Position numbers and translations under genes: made by a program. Shown here in pieces: positions 3,530 through 19,517 of a stretch of 64,000 bases of DNA; within the stretch, counting starts at the first letter, position 1, and each line of letters starts with the position of its first letter. The DNA is from Variovorax paradoxus. Its GTDB lineage: Bacteria > Pseudomonadota > Gammaproteobacteria > Burkholderiales > Burkholderiaceae_C. The stretch lies in assembly GCA_016806145.1 (NCBI GenBank), contig CP063167.1, forward strand, positions 1,484,501 through 1,548,500, read 5' to 3'. The notes below the pieces were generated by a model. It was not told the origin of the DNA and searched no databases. It saw nothing but the letters and a program-made list of their open reading frames with translations.

Positions 3530-4425
3530 GCCATCGGCTGGACGGCAGCATGAGCGACCGCAATGAAATTGCGCGCGGCCGGCGTGAGCGCGTCGGCCAG
3601 CGTCGCCATCGCGATGCCCACGGTGTACTTCGAGGGCATGTCGGTCAGCGGCAGCAGTCGCACGCCGTTGCTGGCGTAGCGCTGCACCACGGCCGGCACC
3701 AGCGCCACGCCGAGCCCGCTTTCCACCAGGCCGAGGATGGTCTGGACCTGCACCGCCTCCTGCGCGATGCGCGGTCGCACGCCGGCATCCTGGAACACCT
3801 GCATCGTCAGCACGTGCATGGCGGGCACGAGGGTGCGCGAGTAGGCGATGAAGGGCTCGGCCGCGAGGTCGGCGATGGCGACCTTGCCGCGCTGCGCGAG
3901 CGCCGAGTCGGCGCTCACCGCGAGCACCAGGTGATCGAGCTGCAGCACCGTGAGCAGCGCGGTGGTGGGCGACAGCACCGGGTGGCGCACCAGCGCGATG
4001 TCGAGCGAATGGTCCTCGATGCGGCGCAGCAGTTCGGTGGTGGTCGACTCCTCGATCACCAGGTCGACGCGCGGGTACTGGCGATGGAAGCCGCGAACGA
4101 TCTGCGGCATCAGCGAGTAGGTGGCCGAGCCGACGAAGCCGATGCGCAGCAGCCCCTGCTCGCCGGCCATGCCTTCGCGCGCGGCGCGGCGGATCTCGTC
4201 GGCATAGAACAGCGCGCGCTTGGCGTTCTGCAGCACGGCCTCGCCCGCGGGCGTGACTTGCAGCCCGGTCGACAGGCGCTCGAACAGCAGCACGCCGAGC
4301 TCTTCCTCGAGCTTCTTGATCGATGTCGACAGCGGCGGTTGCGCCATGTGCAGCCGTTCGGCCGCGCGATGGAAGTTGAGCGTTTCGGACAGGACGAGGA
4401 CCTGCCGCAGCTGGCGAAGCTCCAT
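3517..4425 (-). CDS. LysR-family transcriptional regulator
   Basis: A 302-residue LysR regulator. The start is placed at the ATG opening MELRQLRQVLVLSETLNFHRAAERLHMAQPPLS in pieces (residues 1-33), the standard winged helix-turn-helix; an upstream in-frame extension has no family resemblance. The effector domain follows, with GLLRIGFVGSATYSLMP near residue 90 as its first strand. The gene is divergent from the acyl-CoA dehydrogenase gene starting at 4530, separated by 104 bp, so it most likely controls that operon and itself. The inducer is unknown, probably an intermediate of the pathway. Confidence 0.92.
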   Translation of the reverse strand: MELRQLRQVLVLSETLNFHRAAERLHMAQPPLSTSIKKLEEELGVLLFERLSTGLQVTPAGEAVLQNAKRALFYADEIRRAAREGMAGEQGLLRIGFVGSATYSLMPQIVRGFHRQYPRVDLVIEESTTTELLRRIEDHSLDIALVRHPVLSPTTALLTVLQLDHLVLAVSADSALAQRGKVAIADLAAEPFIAYSRTLVPAMHVLTMQVFQDAGVRPRIAQEAVQVQTILGLVESGLGVALVPAVVQRYASNGVRLLPLTDMPSKYTVGIAMATLADALTPAARNFIAVAHAAVQPMAQSS

Positions 4426-4529
4426 GGATGTGAATGTCTCGGTGATGGCGGCAGCCTGCCGATTATGTCGACCGCGCGCGCTCCGCGCAGCGGGGCAAAA
4501 CCCCATGCCATCTCGAGGAGGGCGTCCCG

Positions 4530-5690
4530 ATGAACCCGTTGCAATCCTTCGCGCTCGCCGCGATCCCCGCGCAGGACGAGGCGCTGCGCGCACCGGTGCG
4601 CGACTTCCTGCGCTCGGCGCTGCAGGGCGTGCCCGACGCGGTGCGCGCGCGCTCGTGGATGGGCTTCGATGCCGACTTCAGCCGCGCCCTCGGCGCACGC
4701 GGCTGGATCGGCCTTACGCTGCCGACGGCCTATGGCGGCGGCGGGCGCAGCAGCTTCGCGCGCTTCGTGCTGCTCGAGGAACTGCTCGCGGCCGGCGCAC
4801 CGGTCTCGGCCCACTGGATCGCCGACCGCCAGACCGCGCCGCTGATCCTGCGCTACGGCACGCCCGCGCAGCGCGCCTTCTTCATTCCGCGCATCGTGCG
4901 CGGCGAGCTATTCATCAGCATCGGCATGAGCGAGCCCGACACCGGCTCCGACCTCGCGGGCGTGCGTTCGCGCGCAGTGCCCACGGCCGGCGGCGGCTGG
5001 CGCCTGAACGGACGCAAGATCTGGACGACCAATGCGCACCGCGCCCACTACCTGTGCGCGCTGGTGCGAACCTCGGGCGCGCCCGAGGACCGGCACCGGG
5101 GCCTGTCGCAGCTGCTGGTCGACCTCTCGCTGCCGGGCATCACGGTACGGCCGATCCGCGACCTCAGTGGCGATGGCCATTTCTGCGAGGTGCTGTTCGA
5201 GGACGTCGAGCTGCCCGCCGATGCGCTGGTCGGCGAGGAAGGCGCGGGCTGGCAGCAGGTGACGGCCGAGCTGGCCTTCGAACGCAGCGGACCCGAGCGC
5301 ATCCATTCGAGCCTGGTGCTGGCCGAGGCCTGGCTGGCGGAACTGCGGCGCGCGCCGCGGGTGCCGGACGGCGCGCTGGCCGTGGCCGGGCGCATCGCCG
5401 GGCGCATGGCGGTGCTGCGCGCGATGTCGCTGAGCGTGGCGCGGCAGCTGGGGCAGGGCCTCGACCCGGCCTTCGAGGCCGCGCTCGTGAAAGACCTGGG
5501 CACCGAGTTCGAGCAGGCCCTGCCGGGCTGGATCGAGGAGGCCTTCGATGCGCCCGGGCATCCCGCGCCCTCCGAGGGGCTGCGGCAGACCCTGGCCTAC
5601 GTGACGCAACTGGCGCCGAGCTTCTCGCTGCGCGGCGGCACGCGCCAGATCATGCGCGGCATCATCGCGCGCGGCCTGGGCGTTCGGTAG
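4530..5690 (+). CDS. Acyl-CoA dehydrogenase, catalytic-type subunit
   Basis: A 386-residue acyl-CoA dehydrogenase preceded by GAGGAGGG as ribosome-binding site. The FAD/substrate segment SIGMSEPDTGSDLAGVRS lies near residues 130-147, followed by GRKIWTTNA. The C-terminal motif reads RGGTRQIMRG, so the Glu used by medium-chain enzymes is Gly. A Glu in the segment ELAFERSGPER matches the alternative position used by LCAD/IVD-type enzymes. A shorter acyl-CoA dehydrogenase gene follows 12 bp downstream; such pairs can form heterotetramers in which only one subunit carries the base. Probably desaturates a branched or cyclic acyl-CoA. Confidence 0.88.
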   Translation: MNPLQSFALAAIPAQDEALRAPVRDFLRSALQGVPDAVRARSWMGFDADFSRALGARGWIGLTLPTAYGGGGRSSFARFVLLEELLAAGAPVSAHWIADRQTAPLILRYGTPAQRAFFIPRIVRGELFISIGMSEPDTGSDLAGVRSRAVPTAGGGWRLNGRKIWTTNAHRAHYLCALVRTSGAPEDRHRGLSQLLVDLSLPGITVRPIRDLSGDGHFCEVLFEDVELPADALVGEEGAGWQQVTAELAFERSGPERIHSSLVLAEAWLAELRRAPRVPDGALAVAGRIAGRMAVLRAMSLSVARQLGQGLDPAFEAALVKDLGTEFEQALPGWIEEAFDAPGHPAPSEGLRQTLAYVTQLAPSFSLRGGTRQIMRGIIARGLGVR

Positions 5691-5702
5691 GAGGAGAACG
5701 AG

Positions 5703-6722
5703 ATGAACGACGACATGCTGCTCGACGACTTCGAGCGTCCGCTGGCCGACCTGTGCACCGACGACACGCTGCGCGCCATCGAGGCGGGGGCTTCCGCCGA
5801 GGCGCTGTGGCGAGCCATCGACGGCCTCGGCTTTACCGACGCACTGCTGCCCGAGGCGCGAGGCGGCGCGGGCCTGTCGCTGCGCGAGCTGTTCGCGCCG
5901 GCCTTCGCCGCGGGCCGCGCGGGGCTCGCGCTGCCGTTCGCCGAGACCGCCGTGGCGCGCGCCCTGCTGGTCGCGGCCGGCCAGCGCGAAGCGGGCGGCG
6001 ACGGGCCGATCGCCATCGCACCGGCGGCGGCGCACGAAGGCGATGCCATCGTCTGCCGCGACGTGCCCGGCGGCGCACTGGCGCAATGGGTGCTGGTCGG
6101 CTCGCAAGGCCACTGGCTGCTGCTGCCGCGCGAATGCGCCGTGGCGCAGCCCGGTGCCTGGCGTCCGCGGGTTTCGGCCACCCTGCACTGGGACACGCCC
6201 GCGCTCGCCGTGGCGCGCTTCGAGAGGGGCGATGCCGATGCCACGGCGCTGTGCAATGCGCTGCATGCCGCGGGCATGGCGGGCGCGATGGCGCGCGTGC
6301 TGGAACTCACCACGGCCTATGCGCAGGACCGCCGGCAGTTCGGCCGCCCGATCGCGCAGTTCCAGGCCATCCAGCAGGAGCTCGCGGTGCTGGCCGAGCA
6401 GGCGCATTCGGCCACGCTGGCCGCGCGCCTGGGCTGCAGCGCCGAGGGCTGGCAGCCCGATGCGTTGCTGGCCGCCGTCGCCAAGCTGCGCGCCTGCGAG
6501 GCCGCGCGCGGTGTCGCGGCCATCTCCCACGCCGTGTTCGGCGCCATCGGCATCACCGAGGAGCATGTGCTGGGCCTCTACACGCGGCGCCTGCATGAAT
6601 GGCGCCAGGCACCGGGCACCGAGGCGCAGTGCGCGCGCCTGCTCGGCGAAGCCGTGCTGGCACGGCCCGAGGGGCTGCTCGATGCCGTCCGGCTGAGGCT
6701 GGCGTCGGCGGTGCACGACTGA
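5703..6722 (+). CDS. Short acyl-CoA dehydrogenase-family protein, possible non-catalytic partner
   Basis: A 339-residue acyl-CoA dehydrogenase-fold protein, shorter than the usual 380-390. The middle domain lacks the SEPxxGSD-type FAD loop, while the C-terminal helical domain is recognisable (AYAQDRRQFGRPIAQFQAIQ near residues 204-223, and ISHAVFGAIGITEEH near 275). No Glu is seen at either known catalytic position. Together with its larger neighbour this resembles the alpha/beta subunit pairs described for actinobacterial steroid acyl-CoA dehydrogenases. The start is an ATG with GGAGGAG eight bases upstream. Confidence 0.82.
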   Translation: MNDDMLLDDFERPLADLCTDDTLRAIEAGASAEALWRAIDGLGFTDALLPEARGGAGLSLRELFAPAFAAGRAGLALPFAETAVARALLVAAGQREAGGDGPIAIAPAAAHEGDAIVCRDVPGGALAQWVLVGSQGHWLLLPRECAVAQPGAWRPRVSATLHWDTPALAVARFERGDADATALCNALHAAGMAGAMARVLELTTAYAQDRRQFGRPIAQFQAIQQELAVLAEQAHSATLAARLGCSAEGWQPDALLAAVAKLRACEAARGVAAISHAVFGAIGITEEHVLGLYTRRLHEWRQAPGTEAQCARLLGEAVLARPEGLLDAVRLRLASAVHD

Positions 6723-6747
6723 ATCATCCAACGATCCGAAAGCGCGA

Positions 6748-7932
6748 ATGACCGAACCGACTTCTCCCCCGACCCGCCAGGGTCCGCTCGCCGGCGTGAA
6801 GGTGATCGAACTCGCGGGCATCGGCCCGGGCCCGATGGGCGCGATGCTGCTGGCCGACATGGGCGCCGAGGTGCTGCGCATCGACCGGCAGACGCCGGCC
6901 GACCTCGGCGTCAAGCGGCCGCTGCAATACAACCTGCTGATGCGCAACCGCCGCTCGATCGCGCTCGACCTCAAGGACCCCGAGGCGGTGGCGCTGGTGC
7001 TCGAGCTGATCGAAGGCGCCGATGCGCTGATCGAGGGCTTCCGCCCCGGCGTCACCGAACGGCTGGGCCTCGGGCCCGAGACCTGCCTGGCGCGCAACCC
7101 GCGCCTGGTCTACGGCCGCATCACGGGCTGGGGCCAGGACGGGCCGCTGGCGCAGGCCGCGGGGCACGACCTCAACTACATCGCGCTGACCGGCGTGCTG
7201 CATGCCATCGGCCGCAAGGACCAGCCGGCGTCGATCCCGTTGGCGGTGGTCGGTGACTTCGGCGGCGGCGCGCTCTATCTGGCGATGGGCGTGCTGGCCG
7301 GCATCATCGAGGCGCGCGGCTCGGGCCGCGGCCAGGTGGTCGATGCCGCGGTGGTCGACGGCGTGTCCCACATGGCCACGGCCTTCTTCGGCATGCGCGC
7401 GGCCGGCCAGTGGCGCGACGAGCGCGGCAGCAACGTGCTCGATTCCGGCGCGCCCTTCTACGAGGTCTACGAATGCGCCGACGGCCTCTGGATCTCGATC
7501 GGCCCGATCGAGGCGCGCTTCCATGCCGAGCTGCTGCAGCGGCTGGGCATCGCGCCCGAGGCCGTCGGCACGCAGCTCGATCCGCGCGACTGGCCGCGCG
7601 CGCGCGCCGTCTTCGCCGCGGCCTTCCGCACGCGCACGCGCCAGGCCTGGTGCGAGCTGCTCGAGGGCAGCGACGTCTGCTTCGCGCCGGTGCTGTCCTT
7701 CGGCGAGGCGCCCGCGCATCCGCACCTGCAGGCGCGCGGCAGCTTCGTCGAGATCGAGGGCATGACGCAACCGGCACCGGCGCCGCGCTTCAGCCGCACG
7801 CCCTCGGGCCGGCCCACCGCGCCACAGGCACCGAGCGACGACGGCCTCGAAGGCTGGCTCGCGCCGGCGCGCATCGAGGACTGGCGCCGCGCGGGCGTGA
7901 TGGGCGCCGCGCCCGCTCAGCCCCAGTCGTAG
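6748..7932 (+). CDS. Alpha-methylacyl-CoA racemase (class III CoA-transferase fold)
   Basis: A 394-residue protein of the CaiB/BaiF family with racemase features. His140 in GHDLNY, Asp170 in GDFGGG and Glu255 in GPIEARF match the catalytic His126, Asp156 and Glu241 of mycobacterial MCR, with the same spacing between all three. It should interconvert (2R)- and (2S)-2-methylacyl-CoA so that a stereospecific acyl-CoA dehydrogenase can act. It lies 25 bp after the acyl-CoA dehydrogenase pair, supporting breakdown of an alpha-methyl-branched acyl-CoA. The 3' end overlaps the convergent crotonase gene by 16 bp. Confidence 0.88.
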   Translation: MTEPTSPPTRQGPLAGVKVIELAGIGPGPMGAMLLADMGAEVLRIDRQTPADLGVKRPLQYNLLMRNRRSIALDLKDPEAVALVLELIEGADALIEGFRPGVTERLGLGPETCLARNPRLVYGRITGWGQDGPLAQAAGHDLNYIALTGVLHAIGRKDQPASIPLAVVGDFGGGALYLAMGVLAGIIEARGSGRGQVVDAAVVDGVSHMATAFFGMRAAGQWRDERGSNVLDSGAPFYEVYECADGLWISIGPIEARFHAELLQRLGIAPEAVGTQLDPRDWPRARAVFAAAFRTRTRQAWCELLEGSDVCFAPVLSFGEAPAHPHLQARGSFVEIEGMTQPAPAPRFSRTPSGRPTAPQAPSDDGLEGWLAPARIEDWRRAGVMGAAPAQPQS

Positions 7933-8756
7933 AGCGGCGGCTGGCGGTTCGCGAAGCGCGCCGCGGCCTCCGCATGGAAGGCCGTGGTCAGCGCCACCGC
8001 CTGCTGGTGGGCCTCGATCTCGCCCATGGTCTGGTAGTCGACATCGAAGCTGCGGTTGAGCGAGCTCTTGATCATGCCGAGCGCCTCGCGCGGACCCCGT
8101 GCCAGCCGCGCGGCCAGCGCATGCGCGGCCGGCAGCAGGTCTTCCGGCGCATGCACCGCGTGCACCATGCCCATGGCCCGGGCCTCCTCGGCGCCGAAGC
8201 GGCGCGCCGTCATCGCGAGCTCCTTCGCACGAGTCAGGCCGAGCAGCCGCGGCAGCATGTAGAAGGCGCCGAAGTCGGGCACCGCGCCGATGCGCGCGAA
8301 GGCGCAGCAGAAATCGGCGCGCGTGGAGGCGAGCACGAAGTCGGCCATCAGCGACAGCGACAGGCCCGCGCCGTAGGCGGCGCCGTCGACCGCCGCGATC
8401 ACCGGCACGTCGAGCGAGCGCAGCCGGTCGAGCCAGCCGCGGTGCACCGCCAGCAGGCGCTGGCGCGTGGCGGCCGCCACGCCGGGTTCGCTGGCGCGCG
8501 ACAGCATGGCCTTCACGTCGCCGCCGGCGCAGAAGCTGCCGCCCGAGCCGGTGAGGATCAGCACGCGTACTTCGGGCGTGCGCTCGACCAGCTCGAGCAC
8601 CTCGATGTAGTCGGCGCGCAGTTCGAGCGACATCACGTTGCGCACCGCGGGCCGCTGGTGCGAGAGCTCGGCGATGCCGTCGCGCACGCGCAGGCACGAT
8701 TCGCGCAGCGTGCGCTCCAGGGGCGCCGCGCCCTCGGGGGTGTCAGCGGATCTCAT
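7917..8756 (-). CDS. Crotonase-family protein, PaaG/isomerase-like
   Basis: A 279-residue crotonase with oxyanion-hole segments GSGGSFCAGGDVKAM (about residues 70-84) and DGAAYGAGLSLSLMAD. As in the crotonase at 685, the hydratase glutamates are not where expected; the third segment reads FARIGAVPDFGAFYMLPRLL, like PaaG-type isomerases. It may move a double bond or process a beta-hydroxy/beta-keto acyl-CoA. The ATG overlaps the last codons of the upstream Bug receptor gene by 14 bp, so both belong to one minus-strand unit. Confidence 0.85.
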   Translation of the reverse strand: MRSADTPEGAAPLERTLRESCLRVRDGIAELSHQRPAVRNVMSLELRADYIEVLELVERTPEVRVLILTGSGGSFCAGGDVKAMLSRASEPGVAAATRQRLLAVHRGWLDRLRSLDVPVIAAVDGAAYGAGLSLSLMADFVLASTRADFCCAFARIGAVPDFGAFYMLPRLLGLTRAKELAMTARRFGAEEARAMGMVHAVHAPEDLLPAAHALAARLARGPREALGMIKSSLNRSFDVDYQTMGEIEAHQQAVALTTAFHAEAAARFANRQPPLYDWG

Positions 8757-9726
8757 CGCCGACCAGCTTCGCGAGTTCGCGGTAGCGCACCGCCTCGTCG
8801 GCGATCAGCTGCGTGAATTCCTTGCGGCCGGTGCCCACCACCTCGCCGCCGCTCTGCTGCGCGAGCTGCGCGCGCACGGCCGGGTCGGCCATCACCTTGC
8901 GCATCATCTCCTCGAGCTTGCGCGCCACCGGCGCCGGCGTCTTGGCATGGATCGCGAAGCCGATGAAGGTGTAGAGCGTATAGCCCGGATAGCCGGCCTC
9001 CTGCACCGTGGCCACCTCGGGCAGCAGCGGATGGCGCGTGGCGCCCGCCACGGCCAGCGCGCGTACCTTGCCCGCGTTCACCAGCGGCGCGGCGCCCGCG
9101 ATGTCCATCAGCGCGAGGTCGACCGCGCCGCCGACCACGTCGGTCACCGCCTGCGAGGCGCCCTTGTAGGGCACGTGGTTGAACGCGATGCCGGCGCGCT
9201 GGCCGAGGTCGAGCGCGCCCAGGCGGTAGGTGTTGCCATAGGTGCCGAGGCTGACGCCGCCCTTGTCGCGCCGCGCGGCGGCGACCACGTCGGCCAGGCT
9301 CTTGTAGCGCGAGTCGGGCGAGGTGATGAGCACGGCCACGTGGCGCGTCATGTTGAGCACCGGCAGCAGGTCCTCGGGGCGGTAGGGCAGGTTCTTCACG
9401 AACAGAGGATTGATCACGGTGGCGCTCGGGCTCACCAGCACCACCGTGTAGCCGTCGGCCGGCGCGCTCAGCGCGGCCTGCGTGCCGAGCGTGAGGTCGG
9501 CGCCGGGCTTGTTCTCCACCACCGCGGGCTGGCCCGCGACTTCGCGGAAGTGCTCGGCGAAGGTGCGGGTCATGGTGTCGCCGCTGCTGCCGGGCCCGAT
9601 GGGCACGATGAAGCGGATCGGCCGCGACGGATAGTCGGCGGCCTGCGCGCGGGCCGGCGGCGTCGCCGTCAGCAGCGAGGCGCAGGCGAAGGCGGCCGCG
9701 ATCCACGCGATCCTGGCGTTGGGCAT
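8743..9726 (-). CDS. Bug-type tripartite tricarboxylate transporter receptor
   Basis: A 327-residue Bug receptor. The start at 9726 gives a clean signal peptide (ARIAWIAAAFACASLLTA, cleaved around ARAQA) and has an AGGAGACA ribosome-binding site; a longer upstream reading is leaderless and rejected. The mature protein has the family segments YPSRPIRFIVPIGPGSSGD, AVVENKPGADL, DGYTVVLVSPSA and VPYKGASQAVTDVVGG. The 118 bp upstream, shared with the LysR gene behind it, contains a perfect 9-bp inverted repeat that is a good operator candidate. Confidence 0.92.
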   Translation of the reverse strand: MPNARIAWIAAAFACASLLTATPPARAQAADYPSRPIRFIVPIGPGSSGDTMTRTFAEHFREVAGQPAVVENKPGADLTLGTQAALSAPADGYTVVLVSPSATVINPLFVKNLPYRPEDLLPVLNMTRHVAVLITSPDSRYKSLADVVAAARRDKGGVSLGTYGNTYRLGALDLGQRAGIAFNHVPYKGASQAVTDVVGGAVDLALMDIAGAAPLVNAGKVRALAVAGATRHPLLPEVATVQEAGYPGYTLYTFIGFAIHAKTPAPVARKLEEMMRKVMADPAVRAQLAQQSGGEVVGTGRKEFTQLIADEAVRYRELAKLVGDEIR

Positions 9727-9844: not shown

Positions 9845-10819
9845 TCAGGCCGGCTGCGTCTCGCGCGCCTGCAGCAGCCGCAGCACGCGCTCGTGGTGGT
9901 CGCGCAGCACCGACACCACGCAGCGCTCGACCGCGAGGCTCGCGCGGTTGATGCGGTGCTTGGCGCCGGTGGCGCAGAAGGTGTGCAGCGTCAGCGCGGG
10001 GCTCACGATGCGTGCACTGGCGAGGTCGCGCTCGTCCTTCGACAGGTAGTCGACCACGCGGTGCACCTGGATGATGGCGTAGCGCCCGCTGTGGCGCACC
10101 ACGTCGCGGATCATCGCGCCCGAGTTGATCTCGAGGTCGGCGCGCAGGTCGAGATCCATGCCCTTGGCCATCTCGCGCACCACGGCCTCGACCGGGTTCG
10201 GCGTGGGCGGTATGACGAGCGGAATGCCGCTGAGCGCCGACAGCGGCAGCGTGGGCTGGCGCATCAGCGGCGAGTCGCGGCGGCCCAGCAGCACCAGATC
10301 GGACGAGAACAGCAGCTGGGCCTGCGCGGGCGGCTCGGCATGGCAGCTGTTGAACACGCCCACGTCGAGCTTGCCGGCGGCCAGCCGGTCCATCACGTCG
10401 CGGCTGTAGCTCTCGTGGATCACCAGCCGGATCTTCGGGAACTGCTCGGTGATGTGGTTCACCAGCGTCGACACCGGCCCTTCGGCGGCCCAGCGCGGCA
10501 GCGCGATCTCGACCGTGCCCGAGGGCTGTTCGTTGGTAGAGGAGGCGAGCTCGAGGAAGCCGGTGGCGCCGTCGAGCAGGCCGTGCGCCACGGGCAGCAG
10601 CGAGGAGCCGAGCTCGGTCAGCAGCACGCCGCGGCCGGTGCGGTTGAAGAGCCGGCCGCCCACCAGCTCCTCGAGCTCGAGCACGCGCCGGCTCAGCATG
10701 GACTGCGAGCACCCGCGCAGCAGGGCGGCTTGCGAGAAGCTGCCCGACTCGGCCGTGGCGACGAAGGCCGAGACGTTTTCGATCTTCAGATCGTCGGCCG
10801 CGCGAACCAGCAACTTCAC
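9845..10819 (-). CDS. LysR-family transcriptional regulator
   Basis: A 324-residue LysR regulator. I place the start at the GTG at 10819 because GGAGGAGA sits six bases upstream; an in-frame ATG 39 bp further upstream lacks such a site. The N-terminal helix-turn-helix covers roughly residues 10-65 (IENVSAFVATAESGSFSQAA, then MLSRRVLELEELVGGRLFNR). The co-inducer domain follows from about residue 90. It is upstream of the Bug/crotonase pair on the same strand and divergent from the DUF2889 gene and the 11.6-19.5 kb operon. Either or both could be its targets. Confidence 0.92.
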   Translation of the reverse strand: MKLLVRAADDLKIENVSAFVATAESGSFSQAALLRGCSQSMLSRRVLELEELVGGRLFNRTGRGVLLTELGSSLLPVAHGLLDGATGFLELASSTNEQPSGTVEIALPRWAAEGPVSTLVNHITEQFPKIRLVIHESYSRDVMDRLAAGKLDVGVFNSCHAEPPAQAQLLFSSDLVLLGRRDSPLMRQPTLPLSALSGIPLVIPPTPNPVEAVVREMAKGMDLDLRADLEINSGAMIRDVVRHSGRYAIIQVHRVVDYLSKDERDLASARIVSPALTLHTFCATGAKHRINRASLAVERCVVSVLRDHHERVLRLLQARETQPA

Positions 10820-10920
10820 TTTCTGTCTCCTCCCGGCAGCAGGACTTGCGGCCTGCAATTTTCACATAGCAGGCATGCGCGGTGCAGGGCTGCGAGGCCG
10901 CTTCGCGGGTTCTAGAGTCC

Positions 10921-10960: not shown

Positions 10961-11545
10961 ATGACGACTTCCGACCCCTCCATCTCCTCGCCCGCGCGGC
11001 GTCTGCTCCACACGCGTGAAGTGCTCTGCCAGGGCTACGAGCGCGACGACGGCCTGTGGGACATCGAGGCGCGCATGAGCGACGTCAAGACCCACCCGAT
11101 GCACCACGACGACGGCCGCGTGCGCCTGCCCGCGGGCCGCTTCATGCATCGCATGGGCCTGTGCCTCACGGTGGACGAGGGCCTGCGCATCGTCGCGGCG
11201 CGTGCCTGGACCGAGCATGCGCCCAATGCCGAGTGCATGGACATCGGGGCGTCCTACGAGGCGCTGGTCGGCCTGTCGATCGGGCCCGGCTTCACCTCGC
11301 GCGTGAAGGAGCGCTTCGGCGGCGCGGCCGGCTGCACGCACCTGACCGAGCTGCTCGGTCCCGTGGCCACCACTGCGTTCCAGACGCTGTTCCCGGTGTT
11401 CGAGCAGCGGCGCCGCGCGCGCTTGCTGAGCGACCCCGAAGGCGCGGCGCGCACGCGGCCGCCGCTGCTCGACAGCTGCTTCGCGCTGCGCGCCGAGGGC
11501 GAGGTCGCGCGCGGGCGCTGGCCGGCCTTCGCCAAACCTGCATAG
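10961..11545 (+). CDS. DUF2889 family protein
   Basis: A 194-residue soluble protein that I assign to DUF2889 from its pattern: RRLLHTREVLCQGYERDDGL, then LWDIEARMSDVKTHP, a central GRFMHRMGLCLTVDEGLRI strand pair, and the C-terminal FGGAAGCTHLTELLGPVA. The function of the family is not known; members often sit beside acyl-CoA catabolic genes. The conserved Cys-Thr-His-Leu near residue 125 could be a ligand or metal site (inference). It is the first gene of a plus-strand run leading into the SDR operon 100 bp downstream. Confidence 0.85.
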   Translation: MTTSDPSISSPARRLLHTREVLCQGYERDDGLWDIEARMSDVKTHPMHHDDGRVRLPAGRFMHRMGLCLTVDEGLRIVAARAWTEHAPNAECMDIGASYEALVGLSIGPGFTSRVKERFGGAAGCTHLTELLGPVATTAFQTLFPVFEQRRRARLLSDPEGAARTRPPLLDSCFALRAEGEVARGRWPAFAKPA

Positions 11546-11645: not shown

Positions 11646-12563
11646 ATGGCAGGAGTTCTGGAAGGAAAGGTCGTGCTCGTGACCGGCGCGGGCCGGGGCG
11701 TGGGACGCGAGATCGCGCTGCTGGCGGCGCGGCAGGGCGCGAGCGTGGTGGTCAACGACCTCGGCGGCGCATCCGACGGCGAAGGCGAGGGCACGATCGA
11801 TCCCGCCTCGGAGGTGGTGAACCTGATCCGCGCCGAGGGCGGCAAGGCGGTGGCCAACGGCGACAGCGTGTCGAATGCCGACGCCGCGGCGCGCATGGTG
11901 CAGGCCGCGATCGACAACTTCGGCCGGCTCGACGGCGTGGTCAACAACGCGGGCATCCTGCGCGACCGCATGTTCCACAAGATGAGCACGCTCGACTGGC
12001 AGCAGGTGATCGACGTGCACCTGCAGGGCACCTACCACGTGAGCCGCGCGGCCGCGATGCTGTTCCGCGAGCAGCAGTCGGGCGCCTACGTGCACATGAC
12101 CTCGGCCGCGGGGCTGGTCGGCAACATCGGCCAGGCCAACTACTCGGCCGCCAAGCTCGGCATCGTCGGCATCTCGCGCTCGATCGCGCTCGAGATGGCG
12201 CGCTGCCACGTGCGCTCCAACTGTGTCTCGCCCTGGGCCTGGAGCCGCCTGATCGGCACCCTGCCCGCGGAGACCGAGGAGCAGAAGCGCCGGCTCGAGC
12301 GCTTCAAGCAGATGACGGCCGACAAGATCGCGCCGATGGTCGTGTACCTGCTGTCGGACCTCGCCGCGGCGGTGAGCGGCCAGATCTTCGGCGTGCGCAA
12401 GAACGAGATCATGCTGTTCAGCCAGCCGCGGCCGCTGCGCACCGTGCACCGCTCGGAGGGCTGGACCGTCGAGAGCATCGCCGAGCACGCCATGCCCGCG
12501 ATGCAATCCAGCCTGGTGCCGATGGAAAGCGCGCGCGAGGCCTTCGCATGGACGCCGGTGTGA
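11646..12563 (+). CDS. SDR oxidoreductase, MFE-2-like (R)-3-hydroxyacyl-CoA dehydrogenase
   Basis: A 305-residue short-chain dehydrogenase. The NAD-binding motif TGAGRGVG is at residues 13-20, followed by VVVNDLGG; Ser153, Tyr166 and Lys170 form the catalytic set (YSAAK). The NDLGG stretch and overall length resemble the dehydrogenase domain of peroxisomal multifunctional enzyme type 2. The start is the ATG at 11646 with AGGAGA upstream; the longer open frame is not SDR-like. The hydratase-2 gene overlaps the 3' end by 16 bp, so together they look like a split MFE-2 acting on (R)-3-hydroxyacyl-CoA. Confidence 0.88.
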   Translation: MAGVLEGKVVLVTGAGRGVGREIALLAARQGASVVVNDLGGASDGEGEGTIDPASEVVNLIRAEGGKAVANGDSVSNADAAARMVQAAIDNFGRLDGVVNNAGILRDRMFHKMSTLDWQQVIDVHLQGTYHVSRAAAMLFREQQSGAYVHMTSAAGLVGNIGQANYSAAKLGIVGISRSIALEMARCHVRSNCVSPWAWSRLIGTLPAETEEQKRRLERFKQMTADKIAPMVVYLLSDLAAAVSGQIFGVRKNEIMLFSQPRPLRTVHRSEGWTVESIAEHAMPAMQSSLVPMESAREAFAWTPV

Positions 12564-13447
12564 GTCGCGCGATGGCCTTCGATCCCGACAAGCTGCTGCA
12601 GCGCCGCTTCGCGCCGGTGGCGCAGAGCTATACCGCCAAGGACTCGATCCTCTACGCGCTGGGCCTGGGCTTCGGCCGCGACCCGCTCGATGCGCGCGAG
12701 CTGCCCTTCGTCTACGAGGAACGGCAGCAGGCCGTGCCGACCCAGGCCGCCGTGCTCGGCTATCCGGGCTTCTGGATGAAGGAGCCCGACACCGGCATCG
12801 ACTGGCGCAAGGTGCTGCATGCCAGCCAGTCGGTGCAGCTGCACCGGCCGCTCGCGCCGGCCGCCACCGTGATCGGGCGCACGCGCGTCAAGGCGATCCT
12901 CGACAAGGGGCCCGAGGTGGGCGCGCTGTTCTTCGTCGAGCGCACGCTCGAGGACGGCGACGGCGAATTGCTGGCCACGGTGGAGCAGGCGGTGATGGCG
13001 CGCGGCAACGGCGGCTTCGGCGGCGCGAGTGGCCCGTCGCCCGCGGCACCCAAGGTGCCCGACACGCCGCCCGACCACGTGTGTGACCTGCCGACCTCGC
13101 CCTCGCAGGCGCTGCTGTACCGGCTCTCGGGCGACCTGAATCCGCTGCATGCCGACCCCGAGGTGGCGCGCGTCGGCGGCTTCGAGCGGCCGATCCTGCA
13201 TGGCCTGTGCACCTACGGCATCGCCTGCCATGCGCTGCTGCGCACGCTGTGCGGCTACGTGCCGCAGCGGCTGCGGCGCATCGACACGCGCTTCACCTCG
13301 CCGGTGTATCCGGGCGAGACGATTCGCGTCGAGATCTGGGGCTCGCAGGGCGAGGTGCGCTTTCGCGCGACCGCGCTCGAGCGCCAGGTCATGGTGCTGA
13401 ACAACGGCCTGGCCGTGATCGACGCTGCCGCGGGAGGCCCGCGATGA
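12548..13447 (+). CDS. Hydratase-2-type MaoC protein (double hot-dog)
   Basis: A 299-residue two-domain hot-dog protein. The second half carries the complete hydratase-2 signature SGDLNPLH with Asp196, Asn198 and His201, followed by FERPILHGLCTYG. Size and arrangement match the (R)-specific 2-enoyl-CoA hydratase 2 of eukaryotic MFE-2, in which the N-terminal domain has lost the catalytic residues and binds bulky acyl chains. It should hydrate 2-enoyl-CoA to (R)-3-hydroxyacyl-CoA for the SDR encoded just upstream. The stop overlaps the next start (ATGA). Confidence 0.92.
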   Translation: MDAGVSRAMAFDPDKLLQRRFAPVAQSYTAKDSILYALGLGFGRDPLDARELPFVYEERQQAVPTQAAVLGYPGFWMKEPDTGIDWRKVLHASQSVQLHRPLAPAATVIGRTRVKAILDKGPEVGALFFVERTLEDGDGELLATVEQAVMARGNGGFGGASGPSPAAPKVPDTPPDHVCDLPTSPSQALLYRLSGDLNPLHADPEVARVGGFERPILHGLCTYGIACHALLRTLCGYVPQRLRRIDTRFTSPVYPGETIRVEIWGSQGEVRFRATALERQVMVLNNGLAVIDAAAGGPR

Positions 13448-14916
13448 ACGGCATCGTGGCCTTCGGTGCCTACGTTCCGCGACTGCGTCTGCAGCGCGAG
13501 GCCGTGGTGCGCGCCAACGCCTGGTTCGACGGATCGCTGGCGGCGCACCGCGCGGGCGAACGCGCCATGTGCAACTTCGACGAGGACGCGGTCACGATGG
13601 CGGTGGAGGCCGCGCGCGACTGCCTCGGCGCGCTCGATGCGGCGAAGGTCGACGACCTGCAGCTGGCCTCGACCTCGCTGCCCTATGCGAGCCGCCTGAA
13701 CGCGAGCATCGTCGCGCAGGCGCTGAACCTCGGCGAGGAGGTCGGCGCGATCGACGTCACCGGTTCGCAGCGCGGCGCCACCTCGGCGCTGATGCAGGCC
13801 CTGCGCGGCGGCGCGGGCCGCCGCACCCTGGTGGTCGCGAGCGACCGGCGCAAGGCCAAGGTGGCCAGCGCGCAGGAACTGCTCTACGGCGATGCGGCCG
13901 CGGCGGTGCTGGTCGGCGACGGCGAGGTCATCGCGCAGCCGCTGGCCCTGGTGAGCCGTACGGTCGACATGGCCGACCACTACCGCGGTGCCGGCGCCGC
14001 CACCGACACCTACTGGGAGGAGCGCTGGATCCGCGAGGAGGGCCATCTGCGGCAGGTGCCGCCGGCCATCGCGGATGCGCTCGCGCAGGCTGGGCTGACG
14101 GCGGCGCAGGTCGACCGGCTGTGCATCGCCCTGCCCCACAAGGGCGTGCCGCAGCGCCTGGCCAAGCTCGCGGGCATCGCCTCCGAACGCCTGCACGACA
14201 CACTCGCCGCGAGCGTCGGCAATGCCGGCGCGGCCCATCCGCTGCTGATGCTCGCGCATGCGTTGGGCGAGGCGGCACCGGGCCAGGTGCTGGTGCTGGT
14301 GGCCTTCGGGCAGGGCGTGGACGTGCTGGTGCTGCGCACCACCGAGGCGCTGCGCGCGCGGCCGCCGCGCACCGGCGCGCAGGGCTGGCTGGCGCGCGGC
14401 AGCGCCGAGCACAACTACATGAAGTTCCTGGTCTTCAACGACCTGCTGCCGCTGGAGCGCGGCATGCGCGCGGACAACGACAAGCTCACGCCGCTGAGCG
14501 TGGAGTACCGCCACCGCAAGACGGTGCACGGCTTCGTCGGCGGCCGCTGCGGTGCCTGCGGCACCGCGCAGTGGCCGCGCACCGACATCTGCGTCAACCC
14601 GGCCTGCGGCGCCACCGGCACGCAGCAGGACCTGCCGTTCGCCGACACGCCGGCGCGCGTCATGACCTACACCGCCGACCGGCTGGCCTATTCGCCGAGC
14701 CCGCCGGCCTGCTACGGCATGGTGCAGTTCGAGGGCGGGGGCCGGCTGATGATGGATTTCACCGACGTAGACGAGCAGCAGCTCGCCGTCGGCCTGCCGA
14801 TGCGCATGAGCTTCCGCATCAAGGCCGTCGACACCGCCCGCGGCTACGTCCGCTATTTCTGGAAGGCGGCCGTCGCAGGTCCGCAGGAGAACACGCATGG
14901 CAACGGGAATTCGTGA
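13444..14916 (+). CDS. HMG-CoA-synthase-like / Zn-ribbon OB-fold (DUF35) fusion, catalytic Cys replaced by Gln
   Basis: A 490-residue fusion. Residues 1 to about 330 follow the HMG-CoA synthase fold; about 345-480 is a DUF35-type Zn-ribbon/OB-fold domain with an intact CxxC-x10-CxxxxC cluster (CGAC ... CVNPAC). In the synthase part the catalytic Cys position, aligned by CxxAT-type spacing, reads Gln109 in GSQRGATSAL; the general-base Glu position reads Thr77 in ASTS; His232 in LPHKG and the Asn of VGNAG are kept. These positions match S. aureus MvaS Cys111, Glu79 and His233 within two residues. It is unlikely to condense acetyl-CoA. The DUF35 domain probably docks on the thiolase encoded next, as in archaeal thiolase/HMGCS/DUF35 and BbsAB complexes. 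The next gene overlaps by 20 bp. Confidence 0.82.
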   Translation: MNGIVAFGAYVPRLRLQREAVVRANAWFDGSLAAHRAGERAMCNFDEDAVTMAVEAARDCLGALDAAKVDDLQLASTSLPYASRLNASIVAQALNLGEEVGAIDVTGSQRGATSALMQALRGGAGRRTLVVASDRRKAKVASAQELLYGDAAAAVLVGDGEVIAQPLALVSRTVDMADHYRGAGAATDTYWEERWIREEGHLRQVPPAIADALAQAGLTAAQVDRLCIALPHKGVPQRLAKLAGIASERLHDTLAASVGNAGAAHPLLMLAHALGEAAPGQVLVLVAFGQGVDVLVLRTTEALRARPPRTGAQGWLARGSAEHNYMKFLVFNDLLPLERGMRADNDKLTPLSVEYRHRKTVHGFVGGRCGACGTAQWPRTDICVNPACGATGTQQDLPFADTPARVMTYTADRLAYSPSPPACYGMVQFEGGGRLMMDFTDVDEQQLAVGLPMRMSFRIKAVDTARGYVRYFWKAAVAGPQENTHGNGNS

Positions 14917-16102
14917 CAAGGTCGTCATCCTCGGCATGGGCTGCTCGCGCTTCGGCGAGCGCTGGGACTGCAGCGCCGAGAACCTCGCGGTGGAGGCCTT
15001 CACCGAATGCCTGGCCGACGCGGGCATCGGCAAGGAGCAGCTGCAGGCCGCCTGGCTCGGCATGGGCATCGAGACCCAGCACCTGGGCAGCGGCGGCGTG
15101 CCGCTGGGCGTGACCTTGCGGCTGCCGAACATCCCGGTGTCGCGCGTGGAGAACTTCTGCGCCTCGGGCTCGGAGGCATTGCGCGGCGCGGCCTATGCGG
15201 TGGCGTCGGGCGCCTGCGACTTCGCGCTGGCCTTCGGCATCGAGAAGCTCAAGGACACCGGCTACGGCGGCCTGCCGCAGCGCCCGCGCGGCCCGTTCAA
15301 CGACATGGTGTGGCCCAACATCAGCGCGCCGGGCTCGTTCGCGCAGCTGGCCAGCGCCTACCGCGCCAAGCACCGCATCGACGCGAAGGACCTCAAGCGC
15401 GCGATCGCCCACGTGTCGGTGAAGAGCCATGCCAACGCGGGCCGCAATCCCAAGGCCCACCTGCGCAACCCGATCACCATGGACGACGTCATCCACTCGC
15501 CGATGATCGCCGAGCCGCTGGGCCTGTACGACTGCTGCGGCGTGTCCGACGGCGCGGCCTGCGCCATCCTGACCACGCCCGACATCGCGCGCGGCCTGGG
15601 CAAGAAGGACCTGGTGGCGCTGAAGGCGCTGCAGCTCGCGGTCTCCAGCGGCAGCGAGGCCTCGTTCGACGACTGGGACGGCAGCTACTTCCAGACCACG
15701 CGCGTGGCCTCGGCGCGCGCCTACGAGGAGGCCGGCATCCGCCGCCCGCGCGAGCAGATCGACCTGCTCGAGGTGCACGACTGCTTCTCCATCACCGAGC
15801 TGGTGACCATGGAGGACATGCACATCTCGCCCGAGGGCCGCGCCTCGCACGACGTGCTCGACGGCTTCTACGACGCCGACGGCACCATGCCCTGCCAGAT
15901 CGACGGCGGCCTCAAGTGCTTCGGCCATCCGATCGGCGCGACGGGCCTGCGCATGGCCTACGAGATGTACCTGCAGATGCAGGGCCGCGCCGGCGCCCGC
16001 CAGCGCAGCGACGACCCGTCCCTCGGCGTGATCCACAACCTGGGCGGCTTCCCCTGGCAGAACGTGTGCAGCGTGTCGGTGCTGGGCAAGTACGGCGCCT
16101 GA
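14897..16102 (+). CDS. Thiolase, SCP2/non-decarboxylating type
   Basis: A 401-residue thiolase. Cys88 in ENFCASGSEA is the acyl-accepting cysteine; EVHDCFSITE and CFGHPIGATG carry the conserved Asn/His-type loop and catalytic His. It belongs to the SCP2-like branch rather than the FadA branch. In the archaeal mevalonate complex, in BbsAB of toluene degradation and in Ltp2 of steroid degradation, related thiolase-fold enzymes require a DUF35 partner; here that domain is fused to the preceding gene product, with which this gene overlaps. Expected reaction: thiolytic or retro-Claisen/aldol cleavage of a branched 3-ketoacyl- or 3-hydroxyacyl-CoA. Confidence 0.9.
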   Translation: MATGIRDKVVILGMGCSRFGERWDCSAENLAVEAFTECLADAGIGKEQLQAAWLGMGIETQHLGSGGVPLGVTLRLPNIPVSRVENFCASGSEALRGAAYAVASGACDFALAFGIEKLKDTGYGGLPQRPRGPFNDMVWPNISAPGSFAQLASAYRAKHRIDAKDLKRAIAHVSVKSHANAGRNPKAHLRNPITMDDVIHSPMIAEPLGLYDCCGVSDGAACAILTTPDIARGLGKKDLVALKALQLAVSSGSEASFDDWDGSYFQTTRVASARAYEEAGIRRPREQIDLLEVHDCFSITELVTMEDMHISPEGRASHDVLDGFYDADGTMPCQIDGGLKCFGHPIGATGLRMAYEMYLQMQGRAGARQRSDDPSLGVIHNLGGFPWQNVCSVSVLGKYGA

Positions 16103-16137: not shown

Positions 16138-17295
16138 GTGCTGATGGACGAATACCGATCGCCCTGGCGAACGCCCGAGGTCGAGCAGTTCCAGGAAACC
16201 GCGCGCCGCTTCTGGACGGCCGAACTGATCCCCCACGTGGAACGCTGGGAGGCCCAGGGCCACATCGACCGCGGCGTGTGGAGGCGGCTGGGCGAGATGG
16301 GCTTCCTGCTGGCCGACCTGCCCTCCGGCTACGGCGGCGGCGATGGCGACTACGCGCACCTGGCCGCGCTGGTGGAGACCAGCGCCGCGTGCGGCTTCGG
16401 GCCGGGCTTCGGCCCGCACTACATCGTGGGCCACTACCTGCACCACTACGGCAGCGAGGCGCAGAAGCGGCGCTGGCTGCCGGGCATGGCCAGCGGCGAC
16501 ATCGTGGCCTCGATCGGCATGTCCGAGCCCGGCGCGGGCTCCGACCTGCAGGGCATCCGCACGCGGGCGCGGCGCGATGGCGAGCACTACGTCATCGACG
16601 GCTCGAAGACCTTCAACACCAACGGCCACCATGCCGACCTGGTGATGCTGGCGGTGAAGACCGACGCGGCGCTGGGCGCGAAGGGCGTGTCGCTGCTGAT
16701 GGTCGAGACGCGCGATCTCGCGGGCTTTCGCCGCGGTGCGCCGCTCGACAAGATCGGCCTGAAGGCGCAGGACACGGTGGAGCTGTTCTTCGACCAGGTG
16801 CGGGTGCCGGTGTCGAGCCTGCTGGGCACGGGCGAGGGGCAGGGCTTCGCGCAGATGATGTCGCAGCTGCCCTACGAGCGCATGCTGATCGGCATCCGGG
16901 CCGTCTGCAACATGGAGCGCGCGCTCGAGCTCACGCTGGCGCACGTGCACCAGCGCCAGGCCTTCGGGCAGCCGCTGTTCAAGCTGCAGAACACGCGCTT
17001 CGAGCTGGCCGAGATGAAGACCGAGGCCACGCTGGCGCGGCTGTTCGTCGACCAGTGCATCGGCTGGCAGCAGGAGGGGCGGCTCGATGCGGCCACCGCC
17101 GCGATGGCCAAGTGGTGGGGCACGCAGAAGGAGTGCGAGACCATCGACCGCTGCCTGCAGCTGTTCGGCGGCTACGGCTTCATGCGCGAGTACCCGATCG
17201 GGCGCATGTTCGTCGACTCGCGCGGCCAGAAGATCTACGGCGGCGCCAACGAGGTGATGAAGGAGATCATCGCCCGCCAGCTGGTGCCCCGATGA
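16138..17295 (+). CDS. Acyl-CoA dehydrogenase
   Basis: A 385-residue acyl-CoA dehydrogenase. I choose the GTG at 16138 because AAGGAG ends seven bases upstream; an ATG six bases later is the alternative. SIGMSEPGAGSDLQGIR (about 123-139) contacts FAD and substrate. The C-terminal loop reads IYGGANEVMKE, so the medium-chain Glu is absent, but the Glu of QLPYERML fits the LCAD-type catalytic base. It should introduce the 2,3-double bond hydrated by the upstream hydratase-2. The stop overlaps the next start (ATGA). Confidence 0.92.
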   Translation: MLMDEYRSPWRTPEVEQFQETARRFWTAELIPHVERWEAQGHIDRGVWRRLGEMGFLLADLPSGYGGGDGDYAHLAALVETSAACGFGPGFGPHYIVGHYLHHYGSEAQKRRWLPGMASGDIVASIGMSEPGAGSDLQGIRTRARRDGEHYVIDGSKTFNTNGHHADLVMLAVKTDAALGAKGVSLLMVETRDLAGFRRGAPLDKIGLKAQDTVELFFDQVRVPVSSLLGTGEGQGFAQMMSQLPYERMLIGIRAVCNMERALELTLAHVHQRQAFGQPLFKLQNTRFELAEMKTEATLARLFVDQCIGWQQEGRLDAATAAMAKWWGTQKECETIDRCLQLFGGYGFMREYPIGRMFVDSRGQKIYGGANEVMKEIIARQLVPR

Positions 17296-18509
17296 GCGCC
17301 GAGAACCACACCGGGAGCGGCCCGCTCGCGGGCCTGCGGGTGCTCGACATCGCGACCGTGCTGGCCGGCCCCTTCGCCGCCACCCTGCTGGCGGACTACG
17401 GCGCCGACGTGCTCAAGCTCGAGCTGCCCGGCAAGGGCGACGGCATGCGCGCCTTCCCGCCCTTCAAGGACGGCAAGAGCATCTGGTGGAAGGCGGCGCA
17501 GCGCGGCAAGCGCTTCGGCACGCTCGACCTGCGCCGGCCCCAGGGGCTCGCGCTCTTCAAGCAGCTGCTGCCGCAGTTCGACGTGCTGATCGAGAACTTC
17601 CGACCCGGCACGCTCGACCGCTGGGGCCTGGGCAAGGAGGTGCTGTGGGCGCTGAAGCCCAACCTCGTGATCCTGCGCGTCACCGGCTTCGGCCAGACCG
17701 GGCCCTATTCGGAGCGGCCCGGCTTCGCGCGCATCTTCGAGGCCATGGGCGGGCTGACCACGGTCACCGGCCACGCGGACGGCGAGCCGATGCACGCGGG
17801 CGTGCCGCTCGGCGACTCGATCGGCGGGCTGTTCGGCGCCATCGGCATCCTGACCGCGCTGTGGCCGCGCGCGCGCGATCCCTCGCTGCCGGGCGAGGAG
17901 ATCGACCTCTCGCTGACCGAGTGCATCACTCGGCTGCTGGACTTCATGCCCGGCGTCTACGAGCAGCTCGGCACCGTGCCCACGCGCAGCGGTAACCGCA
18001 GCCCGTATTCGGCGCCCTCGGCCGTCTATCGCACGCGCGACGACCGCTGGGTGTCGATGGCGGGATCGATCAACTCGATGTTCGCGAACAACTGCTGCGC
18101 CATCGGCCGGCCCGAGCTCATCGACGACCCGCGCTTCGCCGACAACGCGAGCCGCGTGGTGCACGAGCAGGAGCTCAACCGCATCTTCATCGACTGGTGC
18201 GCGGCGCGCGATCTGGAGGAGGTCCTGGCCGCCTTCGCGCAGGCCGGCGGCACGCTGGCGCCGATCTACGGCATCGACCAGGTGGTGAGCGATCCGCAGG
18301 TGCGCGCGCGGCGCTCGATCGTGCCGGTGCCCGACCGCGACTTCGGCAGCCTCCAGATGCCGGCGGTGGTGCCGCGCTTCGCCGGCAGCCCGAGCGTGCC
18401 GCGCCACGCGGGCGCGGCGCTCGGGCAGGACAACGCGCAGGTGTACCGCGAGCTGCTCGGCCTGCCCGACGACACGCTCGCGCAGTTGCGCGCCGACGGC
18501 GTGATCTGA
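17292..18509 (+). CDS. Class III CoA-transferase (CaiB/BaiF family)
   Basis: A 405-residue family III CoA-transferase. Asp175 in PLGDSIGG corresponds to the aspartyl-CoA nucleophile of formyl-CoA transferase. The His that marks racemases (GHDxNY) is missing; the equivalent segment reads GFARIFEAMGG, so a transferase is favoured over a racemase. It probably activates the imported acid by moving CoA from a donor such as succinyl-CoA. The operon contains no CoA ligase, which makes this the likely entry step. The Bug receptor gene follows 30 bp downstream. Confidence 0.88.
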   Translation: MSAENHTGSGPLAGLRVLDIATVLAGPFAATLLADYGADVLKLELPGKGDGMRAFPPFKDGKSIWWKAAQRGKRFGTLDLRRPQGLALFKQLLPQFDVLIENFRPGTLDRWGLGKEVLWALKPNLVILRVTGFGQTGPYSERPGFARIFEAMGGLTTVTGHADGEPMHAGVPLGDSIGGLFGAIGILTALWPRARDPSLPGEEIDLSLTECITRLLDFMPGVYEQLGTVPTRSGNRSPYSAPSAVYRTRDDRWVSMAGSINSMFANNCCAIGRPELIDDPRFADNASRVVHEQELNRIFIDWCAARDLEEVLAAFAQAGGTLAPIYGIDQVVSDPQVRARRSIVPVPDRDFGSLQMPAVVPRFAGSPSVPRHAGAALGQDNAQVYRELLGLPDDTLAQLRADGVI

Positions 18510-18539: not shown

Positions 18540-19517
18540 ATGAAATCACTCGCGCGCCTGCGGGCGCTGCTCGGAGGGTTGCTGGCCGCGCTGTGCGCCG
18601 GCACCGCGGCCTGGGCCGCCCCCTACCCGGAACACCCCGTGCGCCTCGTCGTGCCGTACCCGGCGGGCGGCGCCACCGACGGCGCGATCCGGGTGCTGGC
18701 CGAGCGGCTCGGTGCCGCCTGGGGCCAGCCCGTCATCGTGGACAACCGGGCCGGCGCCTCGGGCCGGCTGGGCCTCGCGCTGGTGGCCAAGAGCCCGCAC
18801 AGCTACAACTTCGTGGCCGCCACCAACTCGACCATCAGCGACGAGCTGACGCGCGGCGGCGATGGTTCCTTCCTGCTGGCGCGCGACCTGGTGCCCGTGG
18901 TCACCATCTTCACGACGCCGGTCGCGCTGCTGGTGCACACCGGCACGGGCGTCGACAGCATGGCGCAGTACATCGCGCTGGCGCAGCGGCGCCCGGGCGC
19001 CGTGAGCTTCGGCTCCAGCGGCGAGGGCACCAGCACCCACTTCTACGGCGAGCTGCTCAAGCGCGAGAGCCGCATCGACATCACGCACATTCCGTTCGCG
19101 GGAGAGGGGCCCAACCTCACGGAGCTGCTCGGCGGGCACATCCAGAGCGCCTTCCTCAGCGCCTCGGGCGCGAAGAAGGCGCAGCAGACCGGCAAGACCA
19201 GGATCCTCGCGATCTCCACGCCCGGCGGCTCGATGCTGCTGCCCGGCGTTCCCAGCTTCACGCAGCTGGGCATCGCGGGGCTCGACCGCGATTCGTGGGT
19301 CGGCCTGTTCGCGCCGCTGGGCACGTCGCAGGCGGTGCGCGACGAGGTGGCGCGCGAGGTCCGCAAGGCCTTCGCCGTGCCCGAGGTGCGCGAGCGCTAC
19401 GTGCAGCTCGGCCTGATCGCCGAGGGCGGAACGCCGCAGGAGCTCGAGCAGCGCGTGCAGGCCGACCGGGCCTACTGGACGCGCGTGGTGCAGGAGACGG
19501 GCATCAAGCTCAAGTAG
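18540..19517 (+). CDS. Bug-type tripartite tricarboxylate transporter receptor
   Basis: A 325-residue Bug receptor with a Sec signal peptide (ALLGGLLAALCAGTAAWA). Family landmarks are YPEHPVRLVVPYPAGGATD, VIVDNRAGASGRLG, FGSSGEGTSTHFYGELL and ALSTPGG-type segments; the GSSGEGTSTH loop covers the ligand pocket. It is the last gene of the SDR-to-CoA-transferase operon and likely captures the substrate of that pathway for import. It converges on the TonB receptor gene, 17 bp away. Confidence 0.9.
   Translation: MKSLARLRALLGGLLAALCAGTAAWAAPYPEHPVRLVVPYPAGGATDGAIRVLAERLGAAWGQPVIVDNRAGASGRLGLALVAKSPHSYNFVAATNSTISDELTRGGDGSFLLARDLVPVVTIFTTPVALLVHTGTGVDSMAQYIALAQRRPGAVSFGSSGEGTSTHFYGELLKRESRIDITHIPFAGEGPNLTELLGGHIQSAFLSASGAKKAQQTGKTRILAISTPGGSMLLPGVPSFTQLGIAGLDRDSWVGLFAPLGTSQAVRDEVAREVRKAFAVPEVRERYVQLGLIAEGGTPQELEQRVQADRAYWTRVVQETGIKLK

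Follow-up and report, generated by a model that had tools for sequence, protein, structure and literature searches.

What does a protein do that resembles hydroxymethylglutaryl-CoA synthase (HMGCS), carries a C-terminal DUF35 part and is encoded directly upstream of a thiolase? The question is raised by the gene at 13444–14916 (+) of a 64,000-nucleotide stretch of Variovorax paradoxus DNA (contig CP063167.1, positions 1,484,501 to 1,548,500; hereafter the window), whose product we call the fusion. We put at roughly three in four the probability that the fusion is a non-catalytic HMGCS-like partner in a heteromeric thiolase of the kind known from the archaeal HMGCS/thiolase complex and PhlABC. 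The loss of catalytic residues, the predicted fold, the gene linkage and the intact residues of the thiolase form the observed basis of this reading. A preliminary description of the locus had offered two roles, a decarboxylating one and that of a structural partner of the adjacent thiolase. The latter is well supported: the catalytic residues are lost, nearly every locus encodes an intact thiolase beside the fusion, and the solved structures nearest to the fusion are subunits of complexes.

Domain organization of the fusion

The open reading frame is intact, starts with ATG and encodes 490 residues; its overlaps with the neighbouring genes are 4 nt (MaoC, upstream) and 20 nt (thiolase, downstream). 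The protein is composed of an inactive HMGCS-like domain (approximately residues 1–305), a linker, and a zinc-ribbon/OB-fold DUF35 domain (approximately residues 356–478). The Pfam families ACP_syn_III_C (residues 213–292), zf-ChsH2 (362–391), and OB_ChsH2_C (404–458) all match above their cut-offs, and the DUF35 part scores 36.7 bits against PF01796 (cut-off 27.1) and 26.3 bits against PF12172 (cut-off 23.2). The four ribbon cysteines (C369, C372, C383, and C388) are present and are retained in 120 or 121 of 121 near sequences (the window protein and its 120 nearest homologues). The fused architecture and the intact zinc-ribbon domain of the preliminary description thus stand.

An AlphaFold2 model of the fusion has a pLDDT of 89 and a pTM of 0.92, and the thiolase/KASIII fold of HMGCS is recognized in it. 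Among solved structures, the nearest to it are HMGCS-like chains that belong to thiolase-type complexes of several components.

Loss of the HMGCS catalytic residues

We aligned a profile of 114 sequences (A1) to Staphylococcus aureus MvaS (PDB 1tvz) and to archaeal HMGCS (6esq_I) with HMMER, and repeated the alignment with MAFFT. Against 1tvz, T77 (codon 13672–13674, +) lies opposite E79, Q109 (codon 13768–13770, +) opposite C111, and residue 229 (codon 14128–14130, +) opposite the catalytic His of the FHVP motif. Against 6esq_I, the same three positions lie opposite Glu, Cys, and the His of FHQP, and MAFFT agrees. Gln and Thr therefore occupy the Cys and Glu positions, as had been described. 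The catalytic His had been assigned to His232, said to be intact; this assignment fails. His232 lies three residues beyond the catalytic position and occurs in 2 of the 121 near sequences (window included) and in none of 79 genome loci. Because residue 229, an Ala in the window protein, and not His232 aligns with the catalytic His, all three catalytic residues of HMGCS are lost in the fusion, as judged from the alignments.

The loss extends to the relatives. We scored 368 homologues of at least 430 residues (120 nearest, 114 found with an actinobacterial query, 120 with a haloarchaeal query, and 14 from plasmids; six shorter ones were left out). None of these homologues of fusion length has Cys in the Cys column or Glu in the Glu column; most (338 of 368) have Thr in place of the Glu. 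Fold and family resemblance would fit a genuine HMG-CoA synthase that works with other residues. With Glu, Cys, and His all absent, and with scores far below the NCBIfam equivalog cut-offs (157.6 against 244 for NF003274, 103.4 against 353.35 for TIGR00748, and 43.4 against 360.35 for TIGR01835), we reject an active synthase as extremely improbable.

The Cys-to-Gln change itself suggested a KSQ-like decarboxylase, in which the synthase domain would decarboxylate a malonyl-type CoA for the thiolase. Structures of FabH C112Q (9ka5 and 9ka6, by their titles) suggest that Gln fits such a pocket, and Gln is found at the Cys position of the window protein and of 113 of the 120 nearest homologues (the others have Leu in five, Val in one, and Arg in one). 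The preliminary description had made Gln109 conservation its test, and among the closest sequences the residue is indeed frequent (114 of 121), but it is found in only 35 of the 79 genome loci, a set that may overlap the nearest proteins; there Leu is found in 39, Met in two, Arg in one, and a gap in two. Gln does not stand in this column in the 114 actinobacterial rows (gap 97, Ala 14, and Ile, Pro, and Val one each) or in the 120 haloarchaeal rows (Thr 97, Pro 17, Ala 3, Ser 2, and Met 1). The catalytic His position is Pro in 109 and Ala in 11 of the 120 nearest homologues, and the operon looks catabolic. A decarboxylating function is therefore unsupported and very unlikely: the residue at the Cys position varies (Gln, Leu, Thr, Ala, Pro, or gap) and the His is missing.

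An intact thiolase beside the fusion

The partner thiolase (14897–16102, +; 401 residues) retains Cys86, HDCF, and GHP, which we take to be the active-site motifs of SCP2-type thiolases. Its start lies less than 400 nt downstream of the fusion on the same strand in 71 of the 79 loci and 1.7–3.7 kb further on in three; in the other five the contig ends within 283 nt of the fusion. The thiolase also adjoins the fusion in all 14 plasmid loci examined (of 38 plasmid matches), in 13 as annotated and in one, L103, by tblastn; in two haloarchaeal plasmid loci it lies upstream. In L103, the thiolase beside a Paraburkholderia fusion (8454–9640) has no entry in the gene table and is matched in two overlapping tblastn pieces, possibly owing to a frameshift. 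Among the thiolases beside fusions, the nucleophilic Cys and the His and Cys of HDCF are present in 82 of 82, and the His of GHP in 81, with one gap. A retro-aldolase like Sal/Ltp2 is not favoured, because the partner retains the thiolase Cys and HDCF.

PhlA proteins are the closest sequence matches of the fusion in the PDB, which raises the prospect that the complex is a PhlABC-like acyltransferase and not a degradative thiolase. We consider this improbable. The partner thiolase matches 7yvy (3.5e-57), 6esq_A (4.1e-47), and SCP2 thiolases far better than it does the PhlC chains (1.7e-15 at best). In addition, the operon has genes for an acyl-CoA dehydrogenase (ACAD), a hydratase, a dehydrogenase, and a CoA-transferase.

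The physical complex and the direction of the reaction are what we infer. In the proposed heteromeric thiolase, the dead HMGCS-like subunit, fused to its DUF35 bridge, would bind the thiolase encoded directly downstream, and the DUF35 part would clamp the two thiolase-fold proteins together. Catalysis would fall to the thiolase alone, through Cys86, HDCF, and GHP: as the last step of a beta-oxidation cassette (CaiB CoA-transferase, ACAD, MaoC hydratase, and short-chain dehydrogenase, SDR), it would cleave a 3-ketoacyl-CoA by thiolysis. The dead domain would stabilize the assembly and line part of the shared cavity, and perhaps also take part in substrate selection. By likeness to other DUF35-associated thiolases, the substrate is perhaps an alpha-branched or bulky acid.

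Variation at the former active site

Several observations weigh against the proposed heteromeric thiolase or limit its support. The zinc ligands are not universal: in the 79 loci, C369 is present in 78, and C372, C383, and C388 in 73 each. Pairwise distances of fusions and thiolases are correlated (r 0.961), a correlation that could also be expected from common descent alone. Most actinobacterial rows are gapped at the Cys column, which another gap placement could fill. His is found at the catalytic position in 87 of the 120 haloarchaeal rows (P0241–P0360) and in one plasmid row, and a Cys lies two columns past the Cys column in at least eight actinobacterial rows and one plasmid row; the retained His and the offset Cys mean that other branches may have residual chemistry. 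Finally, conservation at the former active site does not significantly exceed that of the remaining domain: 40 of 305 circular shifts give values as low. As a separate observation, the haloarchaeal relatives with the catalytic-position His have mostly Thr or Pro for Cys.

A further idea is that the dead pocket keeps a job as a selectivity element: it would hold the CoA tail or the acyl moiety of the thiolase substrate, the CoA site being shared as it is in the archaeal complex. All 114 rows of A1 share S76, T77, P80, R110, W191, E192, W195, and G259, and W191, E192, R194, and W195 are present in 79 of 79 loci. In PhlABC, all three subunits contribute to the cavity wall, and the archaeal complex has its CoA at an interface of three proteins (PMC6392133). 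However, position 110 is Lys in 57 of the 79 loci, PhlABC is said in that paper to lack the CoA-binding residues, and the pocket does not stand out in conservation when compared with circular shifts, so that a role for the dead pocket is unproven; we regard it as possible but doubtful.

Genomic context

The gene for the fusion follows those of an SDR (11646–12563, +; start inferred) and a MaoC-type (MFE-2-like) hydratase (12548–13447, +). Downstream of the thiolase are genes for an ACAD (16144–17295, +), a class III (CaiB-like) CoA-transferase (17292–18509, +), and a TctC-type solute receptor (18540–19517, +). A divergent LysR-type regulator is encoded at 9845–10858 (−), and a DUF2889 protein of unknown function (10961–11545, +) lies between it and the operon. 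As judged from its genes, the operon can supply all steps of one round of beta-oxidation. The order SDR–MaoC–fusion–thiolase–ACAD–CaiB is shared by three Achromobacter loci (L009, L010, and L065; 79–92% identity) and a Sphingomonas locus (L100); the remaining loci retain mainly the fusion and the thiolase, often with the SDR. The family probably serves several catabolic routes, since ring-hydroxylating dioxygenases adjoin relatives in Variovorax, Niveispirillum, Rhodococcus, and M. avium.

Among individual loci, the fusion and thiolase lie near ring-hydroxylating dioxygenases in L101, L106, L108, and L112, with AMP-ligases also in L106, L108, and L112, and near a CoA ester lyase in L105 and L113, the latter on the plasmid of a Sphingobium Tom strain.

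Two terminators and no promoters are found, compared with 2.1 and 0.2 in shuffles, and PADLOC gives no defence-system match. Elsewhere in the window, ACAD genes side by side, a CaiB CoA-transferase gene, and a TctC receptor gene are located at 4530–5690, 5703–6722, 6748–7932, and 2558–3529 (+). One ACAD of the pair matches the N-terminal and middle domains only, and the other the C-terminal domain only. This 2558–7932 cluster looks like a second acid-degradation cluster with a putative heteromeric dehydrogenase.

Distribution and origin of the family

At least 4965 sequences match the window protein at E ≤ 0.001, not all of which need be fusions; the best 120 are the nearest homologues examined above. 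In a tree of 67 domains, 64 fusions stand apart from archaeal HMGCS, PhlA, and MvaS (100/98) and form haloarchaeal, actinobacterial, and proteobacterial branches. The tree is midpoint-rooted and MvaS is a long branch. The sequences are compatible with a single old loss of the HMGCS active site, as the prevalence of Thr at the Glu position (338 of 368 homologues) and a drifting Cys position would fit one such loss; with the root placed at the midpoint, a single loss is not demonstrated. Tentatively, the fusions of Pseudomonadota, Actinomycetota, and haloarchaea could be a third functional branch of thiolase/DUF35/HMGCS complexes. In such a branch, early loss of the HMGCS active site would have left a binding pocket with a new use, the selection of a bulky or branched substrate for a degradative thiolase.

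The family is sporadic in the phylum of the window, because a match at E ≤ 1e-40 is found in 10 of 398 genomes, and one at 1e-16 in 8 of 299 (one of the eight being a 63-bit partial match). A 9.4-Mb genome (G000) has 11 DUF35 matches, yet a single match to profile A1. In one homologue (L090, genome G139), the matched region contains a single in-frame TGA. MaoC, fusion, and thiolase pieces 72–81% identical to the window lie on a 3-kb contig (L011, 1–3029) assigned to Desulfovibrionaceae by binning; the contig is perhaps a mis-binned betaproteobacterial piece or a recent transfer.

Many relatives are named "hydroxymethylglutaryl-CoA synthase" in their sources, and others OB-fold or zinc-ribbon proteins. 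A mevalonate-type function should not be read from the synthase name, which is misleading because none of the 368 examined homologues retains the catalytic Cys or Glu. Why thiolases recruit dead partners could also be approached with the fusion, a tractable case; channelling in other DUF35 complexes has been posed as an open question (PMC12329534).

Comparison with known systems

The preliminary description took a partner function of this kind to be undescribed. However, PhlA is an inactive HMGCS-like subunit that acts with a DUF35 protein (PhlB) and a catalytic thiolase (PhlC) in phloroglucinol acyltransferase (PMC6392133, PMC2954200), and DUF35 homologues fused to members of the thiolase superfamily, as well as the pairing of an active and an inactive member in phlABC, have been reported (PMC2954200). 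PhlABC is the monoacetylphloroglucinol acyltransferase of Pseudomonas protegens and Chromobacterium sphagni. Like the fusion, which it matches best among PDB sequences, PhlA has an HMGCS-like fold from which Cys and Glu are lost. PhlA is required in combination with two others, a DUF35 protein and a thiolase-fold protein that does the catalysis; the fusion, known here from sequence, has DUF35 fused and an intact thiolase gene adjacent. PhlABC consists of three separate proteins of antibiotic biosynthesis, whereas the fusion belongs to a beta-oxidation-type operon, and the Cys position is Gly in PhlA and Gln or Leu in the fusions.

Unlike the fusion, the HMGCS of the archaeal HMGCS/thiolase complex is described as retaining Glu82, Cys114, and His, and its DUF35 protein is a separate chain. 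The MucABC acyltransferase of Streptococcus macacae (9vbo) likewise consists of separate chains; the S. mutans MucABC is proposed to acetylate a tetramate at C-3 (PMC10161427).

The benzoylsuccinyl-CoA thiolase BbsAB and IpfDE pair a thiolase with a DUF35/OB-fold partner in catabolism, as the fusion and its neighbour probably do. To our knowledge, both are without an HMGCS-like domain. The partner thiolase matches 7pxp_C. IpfDE has been termed a thiolase (PMC9195938) and IpfE an OB-fold protein (PMC11347016).

None of the titles and abstract openings in the short lists that we found describes such fusions as thiolase partners, a weak negative. An inactive HMGCS-like thiolase partner is thus already known in kind, in PhlA; what appears new is a fused, uncharacterized branch in catabolic operons, often named "HMG-CoA synthase".
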